NCBI RefSeq assembly: GCF_001485215.1 | Contig: NZ_BBWW01000001.1 | Span: 868,001-932,000 of the forward strand | Source: Leptolyngbya sp. NIES-2104 | Lineage (GTDB): Bacteria; Cyanobacteriota; Cyanobacteriia; Leptolyngbyales; Leptolyngbyaceae | Direction of reading: 5' to 3' | Length of the DNA: 64,000 bases | In this document: in pieces, positions 1,481 to 58,772 of the stretch | Layout of the letters: each line of letters starts with the position of its first letter | Position numbering within the stretch: the first letter of the stretch is position 1 | Made by a program: the position numbers and the translations under genes | The notes under the pieces: generated by a model | Seen by the model: only the letters and a program-made list of their open reading frames with translations | Told to the model about the DNA's origin: nothing | The model's database searches: none

Positions 1481-4400
1481 ATGACTATGCAGTCTTCTCA
1501 ATCGCGGGGGTTTAGTATTAGCTCGATCGCGATTCGACGACATATCGGGACTTTGATGGTGACGCTGACTGCGATCGTCATTGGTCTGTATTTTCTATCG
1601 AGTCTTCAGGTCGATTTGCTGCCGTCGATTACCTATCCTCGGATCGGGGTGCGCGTTAATTCTCCTGGAATTTCGCCGGATGTTGCGGTCGATGAAGTGA
1701 CTCGCCCACTCGAAGAAGCCCTTTCTGCAACAGAAGGTGTAGTGCAGGTTTATTCCCAGACTCGTGAAGGACAGGTCAGCGTCGATTTGTTCTTTCAGCC
1801 CGGCGGAAATATTGATCAAGCGTTGAATGATGCGACTGCGGCATTTAACCGAGCGCGGGGAAACTTGCCGGATACGATCGAAGAACCGACCCTGTTCAAA
1901 GTTGATCCTTCCCAGCTTCCAGTGTATGAATTTGCTGTTACTTCTCCTTCTTCAGAGTTGGTGGATTTGCGGGTGTTTGCGGATGAGGAATTAGCGCGGG
2001 AATTGGGCGTAGTCGAAGGAGTGGCGGCAGTTGATGTCTCTGGAGGAGTCGAAGAAGAAGTTCGGGTGATTGTGGATCTCGATCGACTTCAAGCCTTGGG
2101 AGTGGGATTAAATAGCGTTCTACAAGAATTAGAAGAAACGAACCAGGATATTTCTGGAGGACGGATTCTAGGCAGAAATTCTGAGCCGTTGACGAGAACG
2201 ATCGGGCGGTTCAAGGATGCCGCGGAAATTCAGAATTTATCGTTTCCAGTTGCGGCTACACCGACTTCAACGCAATCAACAAGCGGAACGACAACCGAAT
2301 CGACAACGCCTGCTCCCCAAGAACGAGTTTACCTTCGTGATTTTGCTGAAGTTTCTGATGGAACGCAGAAGCAGCGAGTTTTTGTAAATTTGAACGGTCA
2401 GCCTGCGGTAAAAGTCAGTATTCAGAAACAACCGGACGCAAACACGATTCAAGTCGTCGAAGGTGTAAAACGCCGGATCGAGGAACTGCGTGGATCGGGT
2501 GTCATTCCTCAAGACATGCAGCTTCTTCCAACGCTGGATGAATCAACATTTATTCAAGCGTCTCTCAATAGTGTGACCGAATCTGCATTGTCAGGAGCAG
2601 CGCTCGCAGCATTGTCAGTCTTATTGTTTTTGGGATCGCTCAGACAGACCTTTATCATTACGCTCACGATTCCACTTTGTACACTAGTCGCAATCACGGC
2701 GATGAAAGTTAGCGGTTTCTCGCTCAACATCTTTAGCTTGGCAGGCTTAGCGATTAGTATCGGTCAGGCGGTCGATACGTCTGTCGTGATTCTCGAAAAT
2801 ATTGATAAAAAAGCTGTGGGGCAAGGGGGTGCAGCAGGGTTAGCCGCACAAGGCAAGGGAGCCGCGATCGATCTAGTCGAAGACAGTAGCCAAGAAGTTG
2901 AATCCTCACTCGTTGCAGCGACTGGAGCAAACTTAGTTTCAGTCTTGCCGTTTATTTTAATCGGCGGCTTTATCTCGCTGTTGTTTAACGAATTGATTCT
3001 AACGATTTGTTTTGCGGTTGCGGCTTCGTTGGTGGTTGCGGTCACTGTCGTACCGATGCTGGCATCCCGATTGTTATCGATTCGCTGGTCGAGTCGAATT
3101 AATCGCTTTTGGTTATTTCGGCAGTTTGATCAGCGATTAGCAGGCGGAACTCGTCGCTATGCGGGACTCCTCGCTAAAATTACTCGCAGACCGATTTTAG
3201 CGATCGTGCTCACGGTCATTCTTCTGGGTGGTAGCGGTTTCTGGATGGTCGGTCGAATTCCTCAAGAAATTCTGCCGCGAATTAGTACCGGACAAGCGAA
3301 TTTGTTTGCTCAATTTCCGCCGGGAACTCCGCTTGCAACTAGTCAGCGCGTGATGCAAGAAGTAGATAAAATTATCCAAGCTCAACCGGAAACCGAATAT
3401 GCGTTTACAACGGTCGGGGGCTTCTTGTTCGGCAGTAATACGAGTGAAAACCCGCTGCGGGCTTCGAGCAATATTACCTTAAAGCCAAAAACCGATGTCG
3501 AAGCGTACGTCGAGAAAATCAATCGAGAATTTCAGCGGTTGAACTTAGTCGATGTCACATTGCGGCTCAGTCCCGGACAAGTTCGAGGCTTAATTCTGAA
3601 TAACTCTCCAGTTCGGGGTGCAGAGATCGATGTGATCTTGCAGGGTCAAAACACCGATGAACTCGAAGCCGCAGGGCGACAAATGTTAGGAGCGTTGTCA
3701 CAAGCAACTTTGGCGCGATATCGACCGGATGCGGATCAACGTCAGCCCGAAATCCAGATCGAACGCGATCGAGAACGTGCCGATGCTCTCGGATTGAATA
3801 CACTTGCGGTTGGAGAAACGATTCAAACCGCGATCGAAGGAACGATTCCAACTCAAATTCAGCGCGGAAATCGTTTAGTCGATGTCCGAGTCGAACTCAA
3901 CGAAGACGCGATTCAAAATGCTTCTCAAGTCGAACGGATTCCACTGTTTACGAGTGACAATCAAATCGTGCGATTGAGTGATGTTGCAACCATTCGCACC
4001 GGACAAGCACCTGGACAGATTCAGCGCATTAATCAGCGGCAAGTGTTTCAGATTGCTGGCACGTTGAATCAAGGGGCGAGTTTGGGAGCGGCTTTAGAAG
4101 AAGTCGATCGCATTTTCCAAAATACTCAATTACCACAAGGCATTTCTCGCTTACCAAGTAGTGCCGCAGAAAGTAACCAACAACTGCAACAAGCCTTACC
4201 GCTCTTGGGTGGCTTGGCGGCATTCCTGGTCTTTGTCGTGATGGCGGTTCAGTACAATTCGCTGATTGATCCGCTGGTGATTATGTTTACGATTCCGCTG
4301 GCGTTGTCGGGCGGCATTATTGGATTGTTTGCGACTCAAACGGCGATCGGGGCAACGGTGGTCGTCGGAGCCGTTCTACTGGTTGGGATTGTGGTGAACA

Positions 4401-4780
4401 ATGCGATCATCATGGTGGAAACGGCGAACGAGATTTATGAGGCTGAAGGGATTGATCGTCGATCAGCAATGCTCAGAGCCGCGCCAGAACGATTACGCCC
4501 GATTTTGATGACGACTGTGACAACGGTTCTCGGTATTTTTCCACTCGCTTTAGGATTAGGCGAAGGCGGCGAATTTCTCCAACCTTTGGGAATTGTGGTG
4601 TTTTCTGGATTGTCGTTAGCAACTTTGCTGACGCTGTTTATTATTCCGTGTTTCTATGTGCTGCTGCATCATTGGCTCGATGGTGGGAAAGCGCAAAAAA
4701 TACGATCGACGCGATCGATTCCAAAGGTGGAGGAACCGATTTCGTCGATCTCGAAGACATCACAGGATGGGGCTTTATAG
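1481..4780 (+). CDS. RND efflux pump, inner-membrane permease (AcrB/MdtB-like)
   Basis: Proton-driven efflux transporter of 1099 residues, close to the usual 1020-1100. Hydrophobic segment 1 is near residues 25-45, the two periplasmic halves follow, and the other helices cluster around 370-560, 590 and 900-1070, giving the duplicated 12-helix plan. The helix-4 proton-relay region reads GQAVDTSVVILEN: the first Asp of the AcrB Asp-Asp pair is kept and the second is Thr. The helix-10 region reads VVNNAIIMVE, with Asn where AcrB has its relay Lys. Both changes are known in non-AcrB RND subgroups, so they suggest a distinct subgroup rather than a dead pump. A Gly/Ala-rich insertion after helix 4 (about residues 445-460) is unusual. 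It follows its adaptor by 6 bases. Substrate unknown. Confidence 0.94.
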   Translation: MTMQSSQSRGFSISSIAIRRHIGTLMVTLTAIVIGLYFLSSLQVDLLPSITYPRIGVRVNSPGISPDVAVDEVTRPLEEALSATEGVVQVYSQTREGQVSVDLFFQPGGNIDQALNDATAAFNRARGNLPDTIEEPTLFKVDPSQLPVYEFAVTSPSSELVDLRVFADEELARELGVVEGVAAVDVSGGVEEEVRVIVDLDRLQALGVGLNSVLQELEETNQDISGGRILGRNSEPLTRTIGRFKDAAEIQNLSFPVAATPTSTQSTSGTTTESTTPAPQERVYLRDFAEVSDGTQKQRVFVNLNGQPAVKVSIQKQPDANTIQVVEGVKRRIEELRGSGVIPQDMQLLPTLDESTFIQASLNSVTESALSGAALAALSVLLFLGSLRQTFIITLTIPLCTLVAITAMKVSGFSLNIFSLAGLAISIGQAVDTSVVILENIDKKAVGQGGAAGLAAQGKGAAIDLVEDSSQEVESSLVAATGANLVSVLPFILIGGFISLLFNELILTICFAVAASLVVAVTVVPMLASRLLSIRWSSRINRFWLFRQFDQRLAGGTRRYAGLLAKITRRPILAIVLTVILLGGSGFWMVGRIPQEILPRISTGQANLFAQFPPGTPLATSQRVMQEVDKIIQAQPETEYAFTTVGGFLFGSNTSENPLRASSNITLKPKTDVEAYVEKINREFQRLNLVDVTLRLSPGQVRGLILNNSPVRGAEIDVILQGQNTDELEAAGRQMLGALSQATLARYRPDADQRQPEIQIERDRERADALGLNTLAVGETIQTAIEGTIPTQIQRGNRLVDVRVELNEDAIQNASQVERIPLFTSDNQIVRLSDVATIRTGQAPGQIQRINQRQVFQIAGTLNQGASLGAALEEVDRIFQNTQLPQGISRLPSSAAESNQQLQQALPLLGGLAAFLVFVVMAVQYNSLIDPLVIMFTIPLALSGGIIGLFATQTAIGATVVVGAVLLVGIVVNNAIIMVETANEIYEAEGIDRRSAMLRAAPERLRPILMTTVTTVLGIFPLALGLGEGGEFLQPLGIVVFSGLSLATLLTLFIIPCFYVLLHHWLDGGKAQKIRSTRSIPKVEEPISSISKTSQDGAL

Positions 4781-4977
4781 GGTGTTCTAGAACCTCTCGC
4801 TCCGATTCAGTCCCGCCCCGGAATGGAATTCGGGGCTAATCGAACAAAGTCTACTAAAGGGGACTGAAGAAACTAGATTGAACGTCTTGAGTCCTTTTCA
4901 AAGGACTTCGCACCGTTAGCCCCGAATTCTATTCCGGGGCGAGCGAACAACGCAGCGAGAAGGTTCTAAAACACGCT
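4779..4977. repeat. Structured inverted-repeat element, copy 1 (between convergent genes)
   Basis: The core has two 26-base arms, 4814-4839 and 4916-4941, that are reverse complements with one mismatch. Inside lie two 18-base palindromic boxes: AGTCCTTTTCAAAGGACT at 4890-4907, and a degenerate one at 4848-4865. Each box is 8 bases from its arm. An outer, less perfect pair of arms (near 4780-4802 and 4953-4977, sharing TTCTAGAACC/GGTTCTAAAA and TCTCGCT/AGCGAGA) extends the structure to the stop codons of the RND gene and leuA. A second copy with the same spacing is at 57769-57895. It could act as a bidirectional terminator or be a MITE/REP-like mobile relic; the sequence does not decide. Confidence 0.85.
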
Positions 4978-6583
4978 AGTTTGCCGTCTGAGACGCAACC
5001 GCTTGTTTATTTTCGTTCTGCAACGAGGCATACAAACGATTCAACGCATTCACATACGCTTGCGCTGATGCCACGATAATGTCCGTGTTCGCAGAATGTC
5101 CAGAGTAAATCCGATCGCCATATTTCAACCGAATCGTCACTTCCCCGATCGCATCAATTCCCGCTGTCACCGATTGCACCGAGAATTCGATCAGTTGATT
5201 TGGCACATTCACTACGCGGTTAATCGCTTTGTAAACGGCATCGACTGGACCCGTTCCCGTTGCTGCGTCGGTTAACTCTTCGCCATCAGGATTGAGCAAT
5301 CGAACGGTTGCAGTCGGACACGTGGAACTTCCACAAGAGACTTGCACCAGGTCTAAGCGGAAAAGTTCGGGGACTTGTTGAACTTCATCATTGACAATCG
5401 ACTCTAAATCGCGATCGGTGACTTCTTTCTTTTTGTCCGCCAGTTCTTTGAATCGAACAAAAGCTTTGTTGATTTCTTGGTCGGTCAATTCAAAGCCCAG
5501 TTCATTCAACCGAGAGCGGAACGCATTTCGTCCGGAGTGTTTACCCAGAACTAATAACGTATCGGTCAGCCCGATCGTTTTCGCATCCATGATTTCGTAG
5601 GTTTGCCGATTCTTCAGCATTCCGTCTTGGTGAATTCCGGATTCATGGGCGAAAGCGTTTGCGCCCACGATCGCTTTATTCGGCTGTACGAGCATTCCAG
5701 TCAGGTTCGACACCATGCGCGAGGTTTTGTAAATCTCTTGGGTGTTGATGTTCGTGAGCGGTGTTTCCGATTCGACCGAACGATCCAGATAGGGATTGAA
5801 ATACGATCGACGAACGTGCAGCGCCATCACCAATTCTTCGAGCGAGGCATTTCCAGCCCGTTCGCCAATTCCATTGATCGTACATTCAAGCTGACGCGCT
5901 CCATTTTTGACCGCTTCGAGGAAGCAAGCGACGGCTAACCCCAAATCGTTGTGACCGTGAACGGAAATAATCGCTTGATCGACATTTGGCACATTTTCCT
6001 TGATGCCGCGAATCATGGCACCGAATTCGCTCGGAGTCATGTAGCCAACCGTGTCCGGAATATTGATCGTTTTGGCTCCAGCCGCGATCGCAGCTTCTAA
6101 CACCTGATACAGATATTCAGGGTCAGACCGCGCCGCATCCATCGGCGAAAATTCCACATCATCGACGAATGATTTCGCATAAGCGACCATTTCTTGCGCG
6201 ATCGCCAACACTTCCGCACGAGTTTTTTTCAACTGATATTCCAAATGAATATCTGAAGTGGAAATAAACGTGTGAATTCTCGGTTTAGCCGCGGGTTTGA
6301 GCGCTTCAGCAGCAGCTTTGATATCCGCTGGAATTGCCCGCGCCAAACTGCAAATGGTGGGACCATCCGGAGTGCCAACCGCCTGAGCAATTTTCTGAAC
6401 TGCCTCAAAATCTCCAGGACTCGCAAACGCAAAACCCGCTTCAATAATGTCCACACCGAGTCGAGCAAGCTGACGCGCGATCGTAAGTTTTTCATCCACA
6501 TGAAGGGTTGCGCCGGGGCACTGTTCGCCATCGCGCAGAGTGGTATCGAAAATCAGAATGCGATCGAAATGAGATGCGTTCAT
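4976..6583 (-). CDS. leuA: 2-isopropylmalate synthase
   Basis: First committed step of leucine biosynthesis: condenses acetyl-CoA with 2-oxoisovalerate. The 535-residue length matches the long bacterial LeuA form. The N-terminal HMGL-like TIM barrel carries [13 protein letters not shown] at residues 12-24 and the metal-binding HGHNDLG near residue 211. The C-terminal third (about 400-515) is the allosteric LeuA dimer domain through which leucine inhibits. The catalytic-region sequence fits LeuA better than homocitrate or citramalate synthase. It is a single gene: the upstream NYN gene ends 136 bases away, on the same strand. No leader peptide or attenuator was recognised. The stop codon is embedded in the outer arm of the repeat element at 4779-4977. 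Confidence 0.96.
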
Positions 6584-28300: not shown

Positions 28301-28773
28301 GAGAAGAGTGAGCGAGGCGGTTGCGGATTCAAATTGAATCTGAGGAAAGTCCGGACTCCCAAAAACCCAGACTTGCTGGATAACGCCCAGTGCGCGTGAG
28401 CGTGAGGATAGTGCCACAGAAAAATACCGCCTGGAGAGGTGCGGGGTATGGGGTATGAGGTGCGAGATGTAAAAAATCTCCCTCATACCTCACACCTCAT
28501 ACCTCACACCTCTTCCGGGTAAGGGTGCAAAGGTGCGGTAAGAGCGCACCAGCAGTATCGAGAGGTACTGGCTCGGTAAACCCCGGTCGGGAGCAAGGTC
28601 GGACGAAACAAGGGTTGGGTTTTTTCCTGTTTCGGCTGTTCACTAACTTCTTCGGAAGTTCTGTGAGCGAGAACCGCTTGAGGTTGGAGGTAACTTCAAT
28701 CCCAGATAGATAACTGCCCTTTGTTGCATTGAGCAACACAAGAACAGAATCCGGCTTATGTCTAACTCTTCTC
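28301..28773 (+). ncRNA. rnpB: RNase P RNA (class A)
   Basis: Catalytic RNA of RNase P, which removes tRNA 5' leaders. The conserved cores are unmistakable: GAGGAAAGTCCGG near 28349, AACGCCCAGTGCGCGTGAGC near 28383, GGTAAGAGCGCACCAGC near 28536, GGCTCGGTAAACCCC near 28570 and the 3' CCCAGATAGATAACTGCCC near 28700. Helix P1 closes as 9 perfect pairs, 28301-28309 with 28765-28773, which sets both ends; the exact mature ends are inferred. The P12-position helix (28443-28512) is enlarged by heptamer repeats, giving about 473 bases. Confidence 0.96.
28443..28512 (+). repeat. Heptamer (STRR-type) repeats inside rnpB
   Basis: The 3' arm holds four tandem heptamers alternating CTCATAC and CTCACAC (28482-28509) plus CTC. 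The 5' arm holds GGGGTAT, GGGGTAT and GAGGTGC (28443-28463), which can pair with them, so the repeats form a long hairpin at the P12 position. Short tandem heptamers at this place are known from rnpB of heterocystous cyanobacteria. Confidence 0.85.
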
Positions 28774-56592: not shown

Positions 56593-57723
56593 ATGTATTT
56601 GCGCTCTCTCCATCTTCGCCACTTTCGGAACTATCGCGATCAGCACATCGATTTTACGGCTGCAAAAACAATTCTCCTCGGCAACAATGCTCAAGGGAAA
56701 TCGAACTTACTTGAAGCGGTTGAACTTCTTTCCTCGCTGAAGTCTCATCGAACTTCACGCGATCGCGATTTAATCCTCGATGGTGAAACGCTGTCTCAAC
56801 TCACCGGGCACCTAAAGCGCGAAACCGGAGAAATTGAACTGACGATGATGCTCCGAGAAAGCGGACGGCGCACCGTTGCTCAAAATGGGGTTTCTCTACG
56901 GCGGCAACTCGATTTTCTCGGCACGTTGAACATGGTGCAATTTTCGAGCTTAGATCTCGATTTAGTCCGGGGTGGACCCGATCAGCGCAGACATTGGATC
57001 GATGCACTCTTAGTTCAATTAGAGCCAGTGTATGCGTACGTTTTGCAGCAGTACAATCAAGTACTAAGACAGCGAAATGCACTGCTCAGAGCCAGATTAA
57101 AAGAAGAAAGCGAAGGGCGAACGGTTGCGGCTCCAGATTTAGCATTGTGGGATGCTCAGTTAGCGATCGCAGGATCGAGAGTAATTCGACGACGGGCGCG
57201 AGTCCTCGATCGTTTAGCACCGTTCGCTGCACACTGGCATCAAGCGATTAGCGGCAGTACTGAGAAATTAGAAATTCGATATGCGCCGAATGTTACGGCT
57301 GAAGAGGACACACCGGAAGCATTGCAGACTGCGTTTTTGGAAAAGATTCAGACAAGAGCGATCGCAGAACAACATCAAGGAACGACGTTAGTGGGAGCGC
57401 ATCGAGATGAGGTGGAATTTTTGATCAATCAAACGCCTGCACGACAATATGGATCACAAGGACAGCAGCGAACTTTAGTTCTGGCGTTGAAGTTAGCAGA
57501 GCTTAAATTGATCGAAGATGTGATCGGAGAGCCACCACTGTTGTTGTTAGATGATGTGTTGGCTGAGTTGGATCTCAATCGGCAAAATCAATTGTTAGAT
57601 GCAATTCAGGATCGGTTTCAAACGCTGATTACTACGACACATTTAGGATCGTTTGATGCTCAATGGATTGATTCAGCACAGATTTTGGAAGTGAAATCGG
57701 GAGAGCTTTTAACTTCTGCTTAA
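56593..57723 (+). CDS. recF: DNA replication and repair protein RecF
   Basis: ABC-type ATPase of 376 residues in the RecFOR gap-repair pathway. The start [17 protein letters not shown] and Walker [15 protein letters not shown] are typical; the signature [13 protein letters not shown] and Walker [13 protein letters not shown] are near the C-terminus. It ends at the second copy of the structured repeat. Confidence 0.96.
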
Positions 57724-57768
57724 GAGGGTGTTCGAGGAGTATAAAAAGTCTCTTCGCTTCGATTGTCT

Positions 57769-57895
57769 CCCGCCCTGAAATGAATTTCGGGCTAACGGTG
57801 GAAAGTCTACTGAAGTAGACTGGGAGACAGTTTTAGTTTCTTAGTCCTTTTCAAAGGACTTTCGTCGATTAGCCCGAAATTCATTTCAGGGCGGG
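57769..57895. repeat. Structured inverted-repeat element, copy 2 (between convergent genes)
   Basis: Two perfect 27-base arms, 57769-57795 and 57869-57895. Inside are two 18-base boxes: AGTCTACTGAAGTAGACT (57804-57821) and AGTCCTTTTCAAAGGACT (57843-57860), each 8 bases from its arm, as in copy 1 at 4814-4941. The left flank shares GGGTGTTC with copy 1, directly after the stop of recF. It lies between convergent recF and the DUF1818 gene. Confidence 0.88.
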
Positions 57896-57966
57896 ACGTG
57901 GCAACGAACGACCAATTTTCAAACGTATCTGAATGAGCAACAAACTGCAAAGGTGTTAAAACAGTC

Positions 57967-58326
57967 CTAAAAACCTTCGATCGTACTCAACGCCTGTCTC
58001 AATTCGATCGCATTTTCCCAATATCCTTCGGCTCTGCGCCCGGTTTGAACAATCAATCGCAGACTGTAAGCGTGGGGAAATCCTTCAGCTTCGAGCCAAA
58101 TACGATCGCTTTCTAATTCACAAGCAATTCGCTCTTCTTCCATCAATTCTTGGGCAATTTGCTCCAAAATTTCGTGCAGTTGATCACTCAAGCGACGAAA
58201 ATCGTTCCATTCTTCCTCAGTAAGTTCGATCGCCCAATTCTCGCCCCCGACTAAGCCTTTGAACTCGTTGGCGCTTGCATCCCATCCCAAACGCCAACCG
58301 TTACCAGATTTTAGAATGCGGCTCAT
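57967..58326 (-). CDS. DUF1818 family protein
   Basis: Cytoplasmic protein of 119 residues. The start ILKSGNGWRLGWDASANEFKGLVGG and the central EWNDFRRLSDQLHEILEQIAQELMEEE helix are typical of DUF1818, a cyanobacterial/plastid family of unknown function. It starts on the 4-base overlap with the preceding signal-peptide protein gene, and rpoZ lies two genes upstream. This neighbourhood of DUF1818 and rpoZ recurs in cyanobacteria to my knowledge. Confidence 0.88.
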   Translation of the reverse strand: MSRILKSGNGWRLGWDASANEFKGLVGGENWAIELTEEEWNDFRRLSDQLHEILEQIAQELMEEERIACELESDRIWLEAEGFPHAYSLRLIVQTGRRAEGYWENAIELRQALSTIEGF

Positions 58327-58772
58327 TGTGACGGGCGCGTGAACGCATCGACTAACGCTTGAATCAGTGCATCTCTTTGTTTGCGGGTGAGTTTTTGGAC
58401 AATTGCTCGATCGCTTTCAAACGGATTTTTCCGCAAGTTGTCCGAACCCGGATAGCTTTCCGCCTGCATCGATTCATTAATGCCGAGATAGTCTGCCAGC
58501 GTATACTTCCAATCGAGTCGAAAATTGACCGGACGACCTTTGATGAAATAGTGATAGCGAATCATCCGAGTCACTAGCGTATTACTCGGATCAACTCTGC
58601 CCGTCTCACGAGTGAGATACTGATTTTCGAGCGGCAGATCTGGAACTGCTTTATAAACTTGCTGCCAAACATCTTGAGTCCGAATCGATCGAGTCGGGGC
58701 AGTTTGAGCCATCACCGGACTGACCGCAAACAACAGCGTCACCACACTTGCCAGAATTAGAAATCGCTTCAT
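58323..58772 (-). CDS. Exported hypothetical protein
   Basis: Protein of 149 residues with a clear signal peptide (about 1-22, ending VMAQ). The mature part includes DVWQQVYKAVPDLPLENQYL and LDWKYTLADYLGINESM, conserved-looking but unrecognised. It overlaps DUF1818 by 4 bases and lies 48 bases after rpoZ, so the three may be one operon. Periplasmic or lumenal location is likely. Confidence 0.75.
   Translation of the reverse strand: MKRFLILASVVTLLFAVSPVMAQTAPTRSIRTQDVWQQVYKAVPDLPLENQYLTRETGRVDPSNTLVTRMIRYHYFIKGRPVNFRLDWKYTLADYLGINESMQAESYPGSDNLRKNPFESDRAIVQKLTRKQRDALIQALVDAFTRPSQ

Follow-up and report, generated by a model that had tools for sequence, protein, structure and literature searches.

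A four-hairpin repeat between convergent genes of Leptolyngbya sp. NIES-2104 as a probable IS5-type MITE with a REP-like core

What kind of element is a strongly folded repeat that lies between convergent genes, and what carried it there? The question is raised by two copies found in a 64,000-nucleotide stretch (the window, G000:C1:868001-932000) of the 6.39 Mb genome of Leptolyngbya sp. NIES-2104, for which the first-pass annotation had proposed a bidirectional terminator, a MITE or a REP-type element moved by a RAYT transposase. Copy 2 is built, on the forward strand, from an outer left palindrome H1 (CGCCCTGAAATGAATTTCGGGCTAA, 57771..57795), an inner left palindrome H2 (AGTCTACTGAAGTAGACT, 57804..57821), an inner right palindrome H3 (AGTCCTTTTCAAAGGACT, 57843..57860) and an outer right palindrome H4 (TTAGCCCGAAATTCATTTCAGGGCG, 57869..57893). 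H1 and H4 are exact complements and the interval 57771-57893, folded as RNA, reaches -88.9 kcal/mol where shuffles average -38.3 (z -12.7, with none of 200 shuffles equally stable), which bears out the strong structure and perfect arms claimed for this copy. The complete element is wider than had been described, at about 57724-57929. It begins with a terminal repeat, GAGGGTGTTCGAGGAG (57724..57739, +), three mismatches away from GAGGGTGTTTGAAAAG, and closes with a degenerate one, AATTTTCAAACGTATC (57914..57929, -), placed by eye against the common right end CTTTTCAAACATCCTC and missed by an ungapped end scan, whose best match elsewhere had seven mismatches. The left target triplet is the TAA stop codon (57721..57723, +) of an ORF with a RecF/SMC_N domain, which we take to be recF, so that the element starts right after that stop; the right triplet, TGA (57930..57932, +), is also of the form TNA and differs from the left one. 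The recF-like ORF ending at 57723 converges with a DUF1818 ORF on the reverse strand (57967-58326). Immediately to the right of copy 2, positions 57942-57975 hold GGTGTTAAAACAGTCCTAA, which resembles a type-B right end and is perhaps the remnant of an older second insertion.

Copy 1, the type-B copy of the window, follows the same four-palindrome plan in other letters (fold z -9.9), with its core at 4814..4941 on the forward strand (H1 4814-4839, H2 4848-4865, H3 4890-4907 and H4 4916-4941). Its left end, TAGGGTGTTCTAGAACCTC (4778..4796, +), stands five mismatches from either end pattern and its right end, AAGGTTCTAAAACACGCTAG (4960..4979, -), four from the type-B pattern. It lies between an AcrB-family ORF (1481-4780, +) and a LeuA-type ORF (4976-6583, -), and reading the ORFs on either side of each copy confirms that both sit between convergent ORFs. 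The statement that each copy pairs with itself holds for copy 2 and needs softening for copy 1, whose outer arms are one base off (G against T) and whose H2 is imperfect. Likewise, H3 (AGTCCTTTTCAAAGGACT) is truly a box common to both copies, but the AGTAGACT half of H2 is not, since copy 2 reads AGTCTACTGAAGTAGACT where copy 1 reads AGTCTACTAAAGGGGACT. A repeat search of the window recovered both copies as inverted repeats and also paired them as direct repeats, and showed many GCGATCGC sites, while the sole Rfam match at gathering score in the window was RNase P (28305-28773), with none for the repeat.

Counting copies genome-wide, as had been advised, reveals an abundant family. The H3 18-mer has 49 exact matches in the genome (0 for the reversed control), and a covariance model built from 36 cores finds at least 150 full-length cores, every one at E 2.6e-21 or better (150 of 2041 candidates scored). 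Among these 150, 115 are of type A, like copy 2, and 33 of type B, like copy 1, and the remaining two fall outside the typing rule and are A-like; a subtype C with the same plan and different stems, of which four copies were read, is absent from the list of 150. Across the 36 cores, which span subtypes A, B and C, 97.3% of cells are paired against 91.1 after shuffling, and 98 cells are changed on both sides of a pair against 28.1 shuffled and at most 11 when the partner is slid. Two-sided changes occur in 12 of 40 pairs (8.3 shuffled, a value of 12 being matched by 8 of 500 shuffles), and the covariation score reaches 0.208, compared with 0.096 on shuffling (0 of 500 shuffles); one measure out of the five, further pair types, gives no excess (24 against 26.3 shuffled). 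The compensatory changes noticed between the two window copies are thus real and general. Since the copies are related and the counts thereby inflated, they speak for a structure that has been kept and are not proof that a host function keeps it. Among the copies (L021, L047, L048, L029 and others), the H2 loops (TGAA/TTCA) and the H3 loops (TTTTCAAA/TTTGAAAA) occur in either orientation, as though small inversions had taken place inside the hairpins. One type-B copy (L009, 1400-1552) carries, in place of the left hairpin, a longer perfect inverted repeat that reaches the left end.

The outer layer of the element is that of a MITE, a unit of about 207 bp that ends in repeats close to GAGGGTGTTTGAAAAG and is flanked by TNA target duplications of 3 bp. 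The end pattern GAGGGTGTTTGAAAAGT, at up to two mismatches, has 170 matches in the genome against three for the reversed pattern, and among the places listed the matches pair invertedly at about 207, 82, 55 or 915 bases. The 915-bp elements are six in number, identical to one another, with the same ends as the MITE and TNA duplications in all six (TTA, TAA, TTA, TAA, TGA, TTA); they encode a transposase of the IS5 family, 263 aa long (NF033580, E 5.3e-62; PF13340; PF01609), and are the likely source of the transposase for the MITE. Both ends are present within three mismatches at 66 of the 150 listed cores, and the triplets outside them are identical in 45 of these 66, whereas shuffling gives 22.3 and reached 45 in none of 20000 trials. 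A TNA triplet stands on both sides in 49 of the 66, with the middle base agreeing in 45 of the 49, and in the offset controls, with triplets taken one, two and three bases outward, agreement falls to 0, 1 and 0 of 66. The flanking target duplications that the first-pass annotation had suggested looking for are therefore present in the family, though the window copy itself has unequal triplets (TAA/TGA). Derivatives that lack the full core, three of 82 bp and one of 55 bp, are also flanked by identical triplets (CTA, TAA, TAA, TAA), which indicates that the core is dispensable for movement.

The ends of type B are mostly different, near GGGTGTGTTTTAAAAC; the full-length IS5 partner is one for the A-type ends, all 33 type-B cores having been set aside in looking for it. 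Two cores of type B are flanked left and right by A-type ends, and cores and ends therefore look exchangeable. Over all 150 listed cores, 19 lack both ends and 38 have a single one, and some of these may have arrived otherwise or decayed. At G000:C1:2001738-2002700 (L023, L081), a 915-bp IS5-family copy lies beside or in the left end of a MITE copy, an insertion that would account for the shortened left end of that copy.

The inner layer has a different kinship. The source genome contains a single Y1_Tnp match, which has subclass 1.2 motifs and a stop inside it; this broken gene ends in a type-B right half, H3-H4, whose first bases overlap the stop codon. Two related genomes, G002 and G011, have intact Y1 genes with H1-H2 upstream and H3-H4 downstream, and in G004 the gene is broken and the right half kept. 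The protein of G011, which belongs to the same family as the source genome, is identical to one of Phormidesmis priestleyi BC1401 (L337). As the same hairpin pairs surround subclass 1.2 genes, the MITE core corresponds to a HUH element minus the gene between H2 and H3. The subclass 1.2 proteins match Y1_Tnp and solved IS608-type transposases (E 1.7e-15), and among 30 of them [DNE]H.H is found in 30, WQ in 29 and Y---Q--HH in 28, while neither Y---Q--HH nor WQ is found in any of 26 other Y1 proteins. The signature given for subclass 1.2 in the published survey is DH[IV]H, WQ and Y---Q--HH, with the table entry for REP reading 'no' (PMC6006769). By motif, and not by tree, the hairpin-flanked Y1 genes are thus of subclass 1.2. 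The foot of H4/H1 carries a conserved TTAG/CTAA, a candidate for the tetranucleotide guide of such a transposase. The IS5-type ends had no counterpart in six flanks of four HUH loci (best 7 or 8 mismatches); at one of these loci, L132, the end test of the left flank had matched an extra upstream H1-like copy and the gene-adjacent copy was judged by eye. A classical cognate RAYT was considered for the source genome and set aside, its only Y1 match being interrupted and bearing subclass 1.2 motifs; the TnpA_REP gene that had been proposed as a check is hence represented by one Y1 gene of another kind, and a broken one.

This pairing of gene and hairpins extends beyond these genomes. A Y1 search of 39 relatives (matches in 30) had IS200 mixed in and was set aside, and a phylum search at E <= 1e-10 also caught IS200-like proteins (74 of 292 genomes), so matches above 110 bits were taken as subclass 1.2; these occur in 25 of the 292 phylum genomes, the source genome included. 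The 34 rows of the flank test reduce to 30 distinct loci, four having been fetched twice (29 and 25 passes, respectively). An inverted repeat between the flanks exceeds the threshold at 25 of the 30 distinct loci and at none of the 27 rows for other Y1 genes, one of which, L286, is the source genome's own truncated subclass 1.2 gene. Mismatched upstream and downstream pairs within subclass 1.2 pass in 25% of cases because the family shares a consensus, and the folding z-scores of the flanks do not separate subclass 1.2 from other Y1 loci. The failing distinct loci are L134, L274, L284, L287 and L131, of which L134, L274 and L131 show one-sided hairpins by eye. The plan, read by eye, is CCnnnAATnnATTnnnGGCTAATAGCnnAAGTC...GACT, then the gene, then the mirror image. 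In a further set of named loci (the best 80 of 267, with one of the 80 left out for short flanks), flank repeats occur at 39 of 54 cyanobacterial loci (27 of the best 40 and 12 of the weaker 14) and at 16 of 25 others, mostly Chloroflexi bins, with mismatched pairs passing in 29% and 17% of cases, respectively. Subclass 1.2 relatives, some with similar flanking repeats, are also seen at L349, L376-L405 and L410 in named Chloroflexi and other bins; these lie outside the named phyla of the survey and, being bins, are open to contamination.

The cores themselves occur in 15 of 24 genomes searched with the covariance model, at most 147 candidates being scored in each. G002 and G011, with their intact genes, have at least 99 cores each (model R1). 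At least 43 were found in G003, 56 in G007, 90 in G010 and 23 in G014, four draft genomes in which no subclass 1.2 gene scored above 70 bits, G003 having a weak match of 31 residues.

Overall, the repeat is very probably a composite, an IS5-type MITE with a REP-like core, in which IS5 moves the 207-bp unit in trans and the HUH core is a dormant passenger. An IS5-family DDE transposase would recognise the ends near GAGGGTGTTTGAAAAG and move the MITE of about 207 bp in trans into a TNA triplet, mostly TTA or TAA, that would be duplicated on insertion; where the insertion overlaps a stop codon, the stop would be duplicated and the gene spared. The REP/BIME-like core of four hairpins, H1-H2-H3-H4, would be what is left of a HUH-Y1 subclass 1.2 element without its gene, the layout of such an element being H1-H2, transposase gene, H3-H4. 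Both assignments of enzyme to substrate, the IS5 transposase as the mover of the MITE and the subclass 1.2 protein as the one that would act on the core hairpins, are drawn from sequence comparison, and the core would have been captured by the IS5 ends rather than the reverse. Given that most copies lie inside IS5-type ends and that the sole Y1 gene is interrupted, present movement is best ascribed to IS5. The window copy itself, with its degenerate right end and unequal triplets TAA/TGA, counts against the composite reading. The MITE idea of the first-pass annotation therefore stands as regards terminal repeats, TNA duplications, a full-length IS5 element and empty sites, and has to be amended for a core of HUH-Y1 origin; the idea of a REP moved by a RAYT survives in that the core shares its build with the flanks of subclass 1.2 genes, and fails in that most copies are within IS5-type ends and the Y1 gene is interrupted.

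Could the core instead be a free REP doublet of the REPIN or BIME kind, moved directly by a HUH-Y1 RAYT, with the IS5-like ends incidental? The match of the core to the flanks of subclass 1.2 genes would suit this alternative, as would the behaviour of the H3-H4 unit of the gene in G262, which has 20 copies in G262, five of these at the locus of the gene, 44 in G138 and none in G002. Six copies away from the gene locus in G262 and G138 were read by eye, and none showed IS5-type ends; an inverted partner accompanies two of them, and two have the same left flank. In the source genome, with ends of either type accepted at up to four mismatches, neither end is present at 11 of the 115 cores of type A or at 8 of the 33 of type B. 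However, both ends are present at 80 of the 115 type-A cores (one end at 24; for type B, both at 11 of 33 and one at 14), the TNA duplications lie at the IS5-type ends and not at the core, the sole Y1 gene of the source genome is interrupted, and derivatives without the core have moved. A free doublet is thus an improbable account of this family. In the distant genomes the unit resembles a free REP, and in the source genome most type-A copies are inside MITEs.

A second alternative would leave mobility aside and see in the repeat a 3'-end structure maintained by the host, a terminator or mRNA stabiliser for both convergent genes. The strong fold, the paired changes and the position at gene ends would fit such a role. 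Moreover, one paper states that Rho is absent from cyanobacteria and that transcription units of Synechococcus elongatus mostly end by no known pathway (PMC13289151). The position can be examined at 45 reconstructed sites with identical TNA triplets, the gene context being set by a longest-ORF rule and not by gene calls. There, 21 sites overlap a stop codon that closes an ORF of at least 100 aa, 22 are intergenic and two lie within an ORF, whereas nearby TAA/TTA control sites number 31 stop-overlapping, 455 intergenic and 1295 inside an ORF; the stop overlap is hence 21 of 45, compared with 31 of 486 among non-coding TAA/TTA sites nearby (p about 2e-14). Under a stricter rule, the triplet falls exactly at the stop in 11 of the 45 and within 12 bases of it in 8 more. 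Among the 150 listed copies, the flanking ORFs are tandem at 87, convergent at 48 and divergent at 15 by the longest-ORF heuristic, against a window background of 24 tandem, 8 convergent and 11 divergent among 43 neighbouring ORF pairs. As TAA/TTA reads as a stop on one strand, an insertion there duplicates the stop and leaves the gene intact, and insertion on the stop signals of genes probably does little harm. The bias could reflect the choice of target or, alike, the survival of harmless insertions, and these cannot be told apart.

The TNA target and the duplicated stop already account for the position and so argue against the host-structure alternative. Nor did a simple scan of both strands of 57680-57980 find any intrinsic-terminator-like site (a GC-rich hairpin plus a T run), which leaves the proposed bidirectional terminator without support, and a scan for promoters at the copy 2 element was likewise empty. 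Further, the repeat is absent at tested sites in sister species. Fourteen insertions, as joined flanks, were compared with seven genomes of the same genus, and seven of the sites were read base by base; a clean empty allele, gap-free up to 20 bases from the junction and more than 65% identical there, is found at four of the seven, in keeping with the mobility test proposed at the outset and for copies other than that of the window. At C1:658250 it is found in two genomes and at C1:3700980 in five (G001, G003, G004, G006 and G007); C1:5079444 has one clean allele, a second at 26/40 and five others that show between 1 and 13 gap positions, and C1:3007300 one clean allele and one more with a single gap. 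A gap of one base is seen at site 2292965, and of 3 to 9 at sites 1849777 and 2114332. The recF-like and DUF1818 genes that flank copy 2 match separate places in the sister genomes, so that no empty allele can be read for the window copy. With these genes apart in sister genomes, their junction (57424-58330 in the window) may mark a rearrangement. A host-maintained structure is very improbable as the explanation of the repeat, and a 3'-end role may coexist with a mobile origin as a secondary effect. Finally, that the hairpin core is primarily a feature of the IS5 MITE and the HUH genes cargo inserted into such MITEs is scarcely credible, for although the gene lies between H2 and H3, at the short spacer of the MITE, hairpin pairs are widespread with subclass 1.2 genes across cyanobacteria and some Chloroflexi bins, and none of the six flanks at the four HUH loci has an IS5-type end.

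The composite reading bears on several wider matters. It provides a probable DNA substrate for a transposase subclass that the published survey had left without one, and binding and cleavage are thereby directly testable. Two unrelated transposition systems appear stacked within one small element, and cores persist in genomes in which the search met no intact HUH gene, an observation relevant to the survival of REP-like repeats. The bias for stop codons offers a simple reason for repeats at gene ends, for which no host function is required. It seems fairly probable, beyond this locus, that subclass 1.2 owns a double-hairpin REP system of cyanobacteria, and perhaps of Chloroflexi, and that in the lineage of the source genome its gene-less cores persisted beyond any intact transposase through capture in IS5 ends, a change of vehicle from HUH to DDE. 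In the open-licence part of PMC, a search turned up no paper that describes a REP-like partner of subclass 1.2 or such a core within IS5 ends; an earlier description of related repeats is possible.

Neither MITEs of insertion sequences nor REPs of Y1 transposases are new in themselves, and the small dispersed repeats of Nostoc (Elhai, 2008) are reportedly small repeated elements of cyanobacterial genomes. Nezha of cyanobacteria and NEMIS/Correia are MITEs derived from insertion sequences (PMC3733652, PMC10969869). The present element shares with IS-derived MITEs its short, non-coding nature, terminal inverted repeats, target duplications and ends in common with a full-length IS of the genome, but its interior is a conserved four-hairpin HUH-Y1 core and not degraded IS5 sequence, and its insertions favour stop codons. 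With the REPINs and BIMEs of RAYT (TnpA_REP) genes (PMC3116915, PMC6006769, PMC3733652), it shares inverted doublets of palindromes, an intergenic location, many copies and a match to the sequence on either side of a single Y1 transposase gene. In contrast to those doublets, each unit here is a double hairpin, the related protein has subclass 1.2 and not class 2 motifs, and the doublets, framed by IS5-type ends, have lasted longer than an intact gene. TIRYTs or TIRtrons are comparable in that they are Y1 genes with long flanking inverted repeats, some of them self-complementary and repeated in the genome, but those described belong to subclasses 2.1, 2.2 and 2.5, with none of 1.2 (PMC3733652, PMC6006769). 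Subclass 1.2 itself, in the survey, has the same DH.H, WQ and Y---Q--HH motifs, low copy number and occurrence in cyanobacteria, and is generally without the typical terminal structures of IS200, whereas the genes described here are flanked by pairs of hairpins (PMC6006769).
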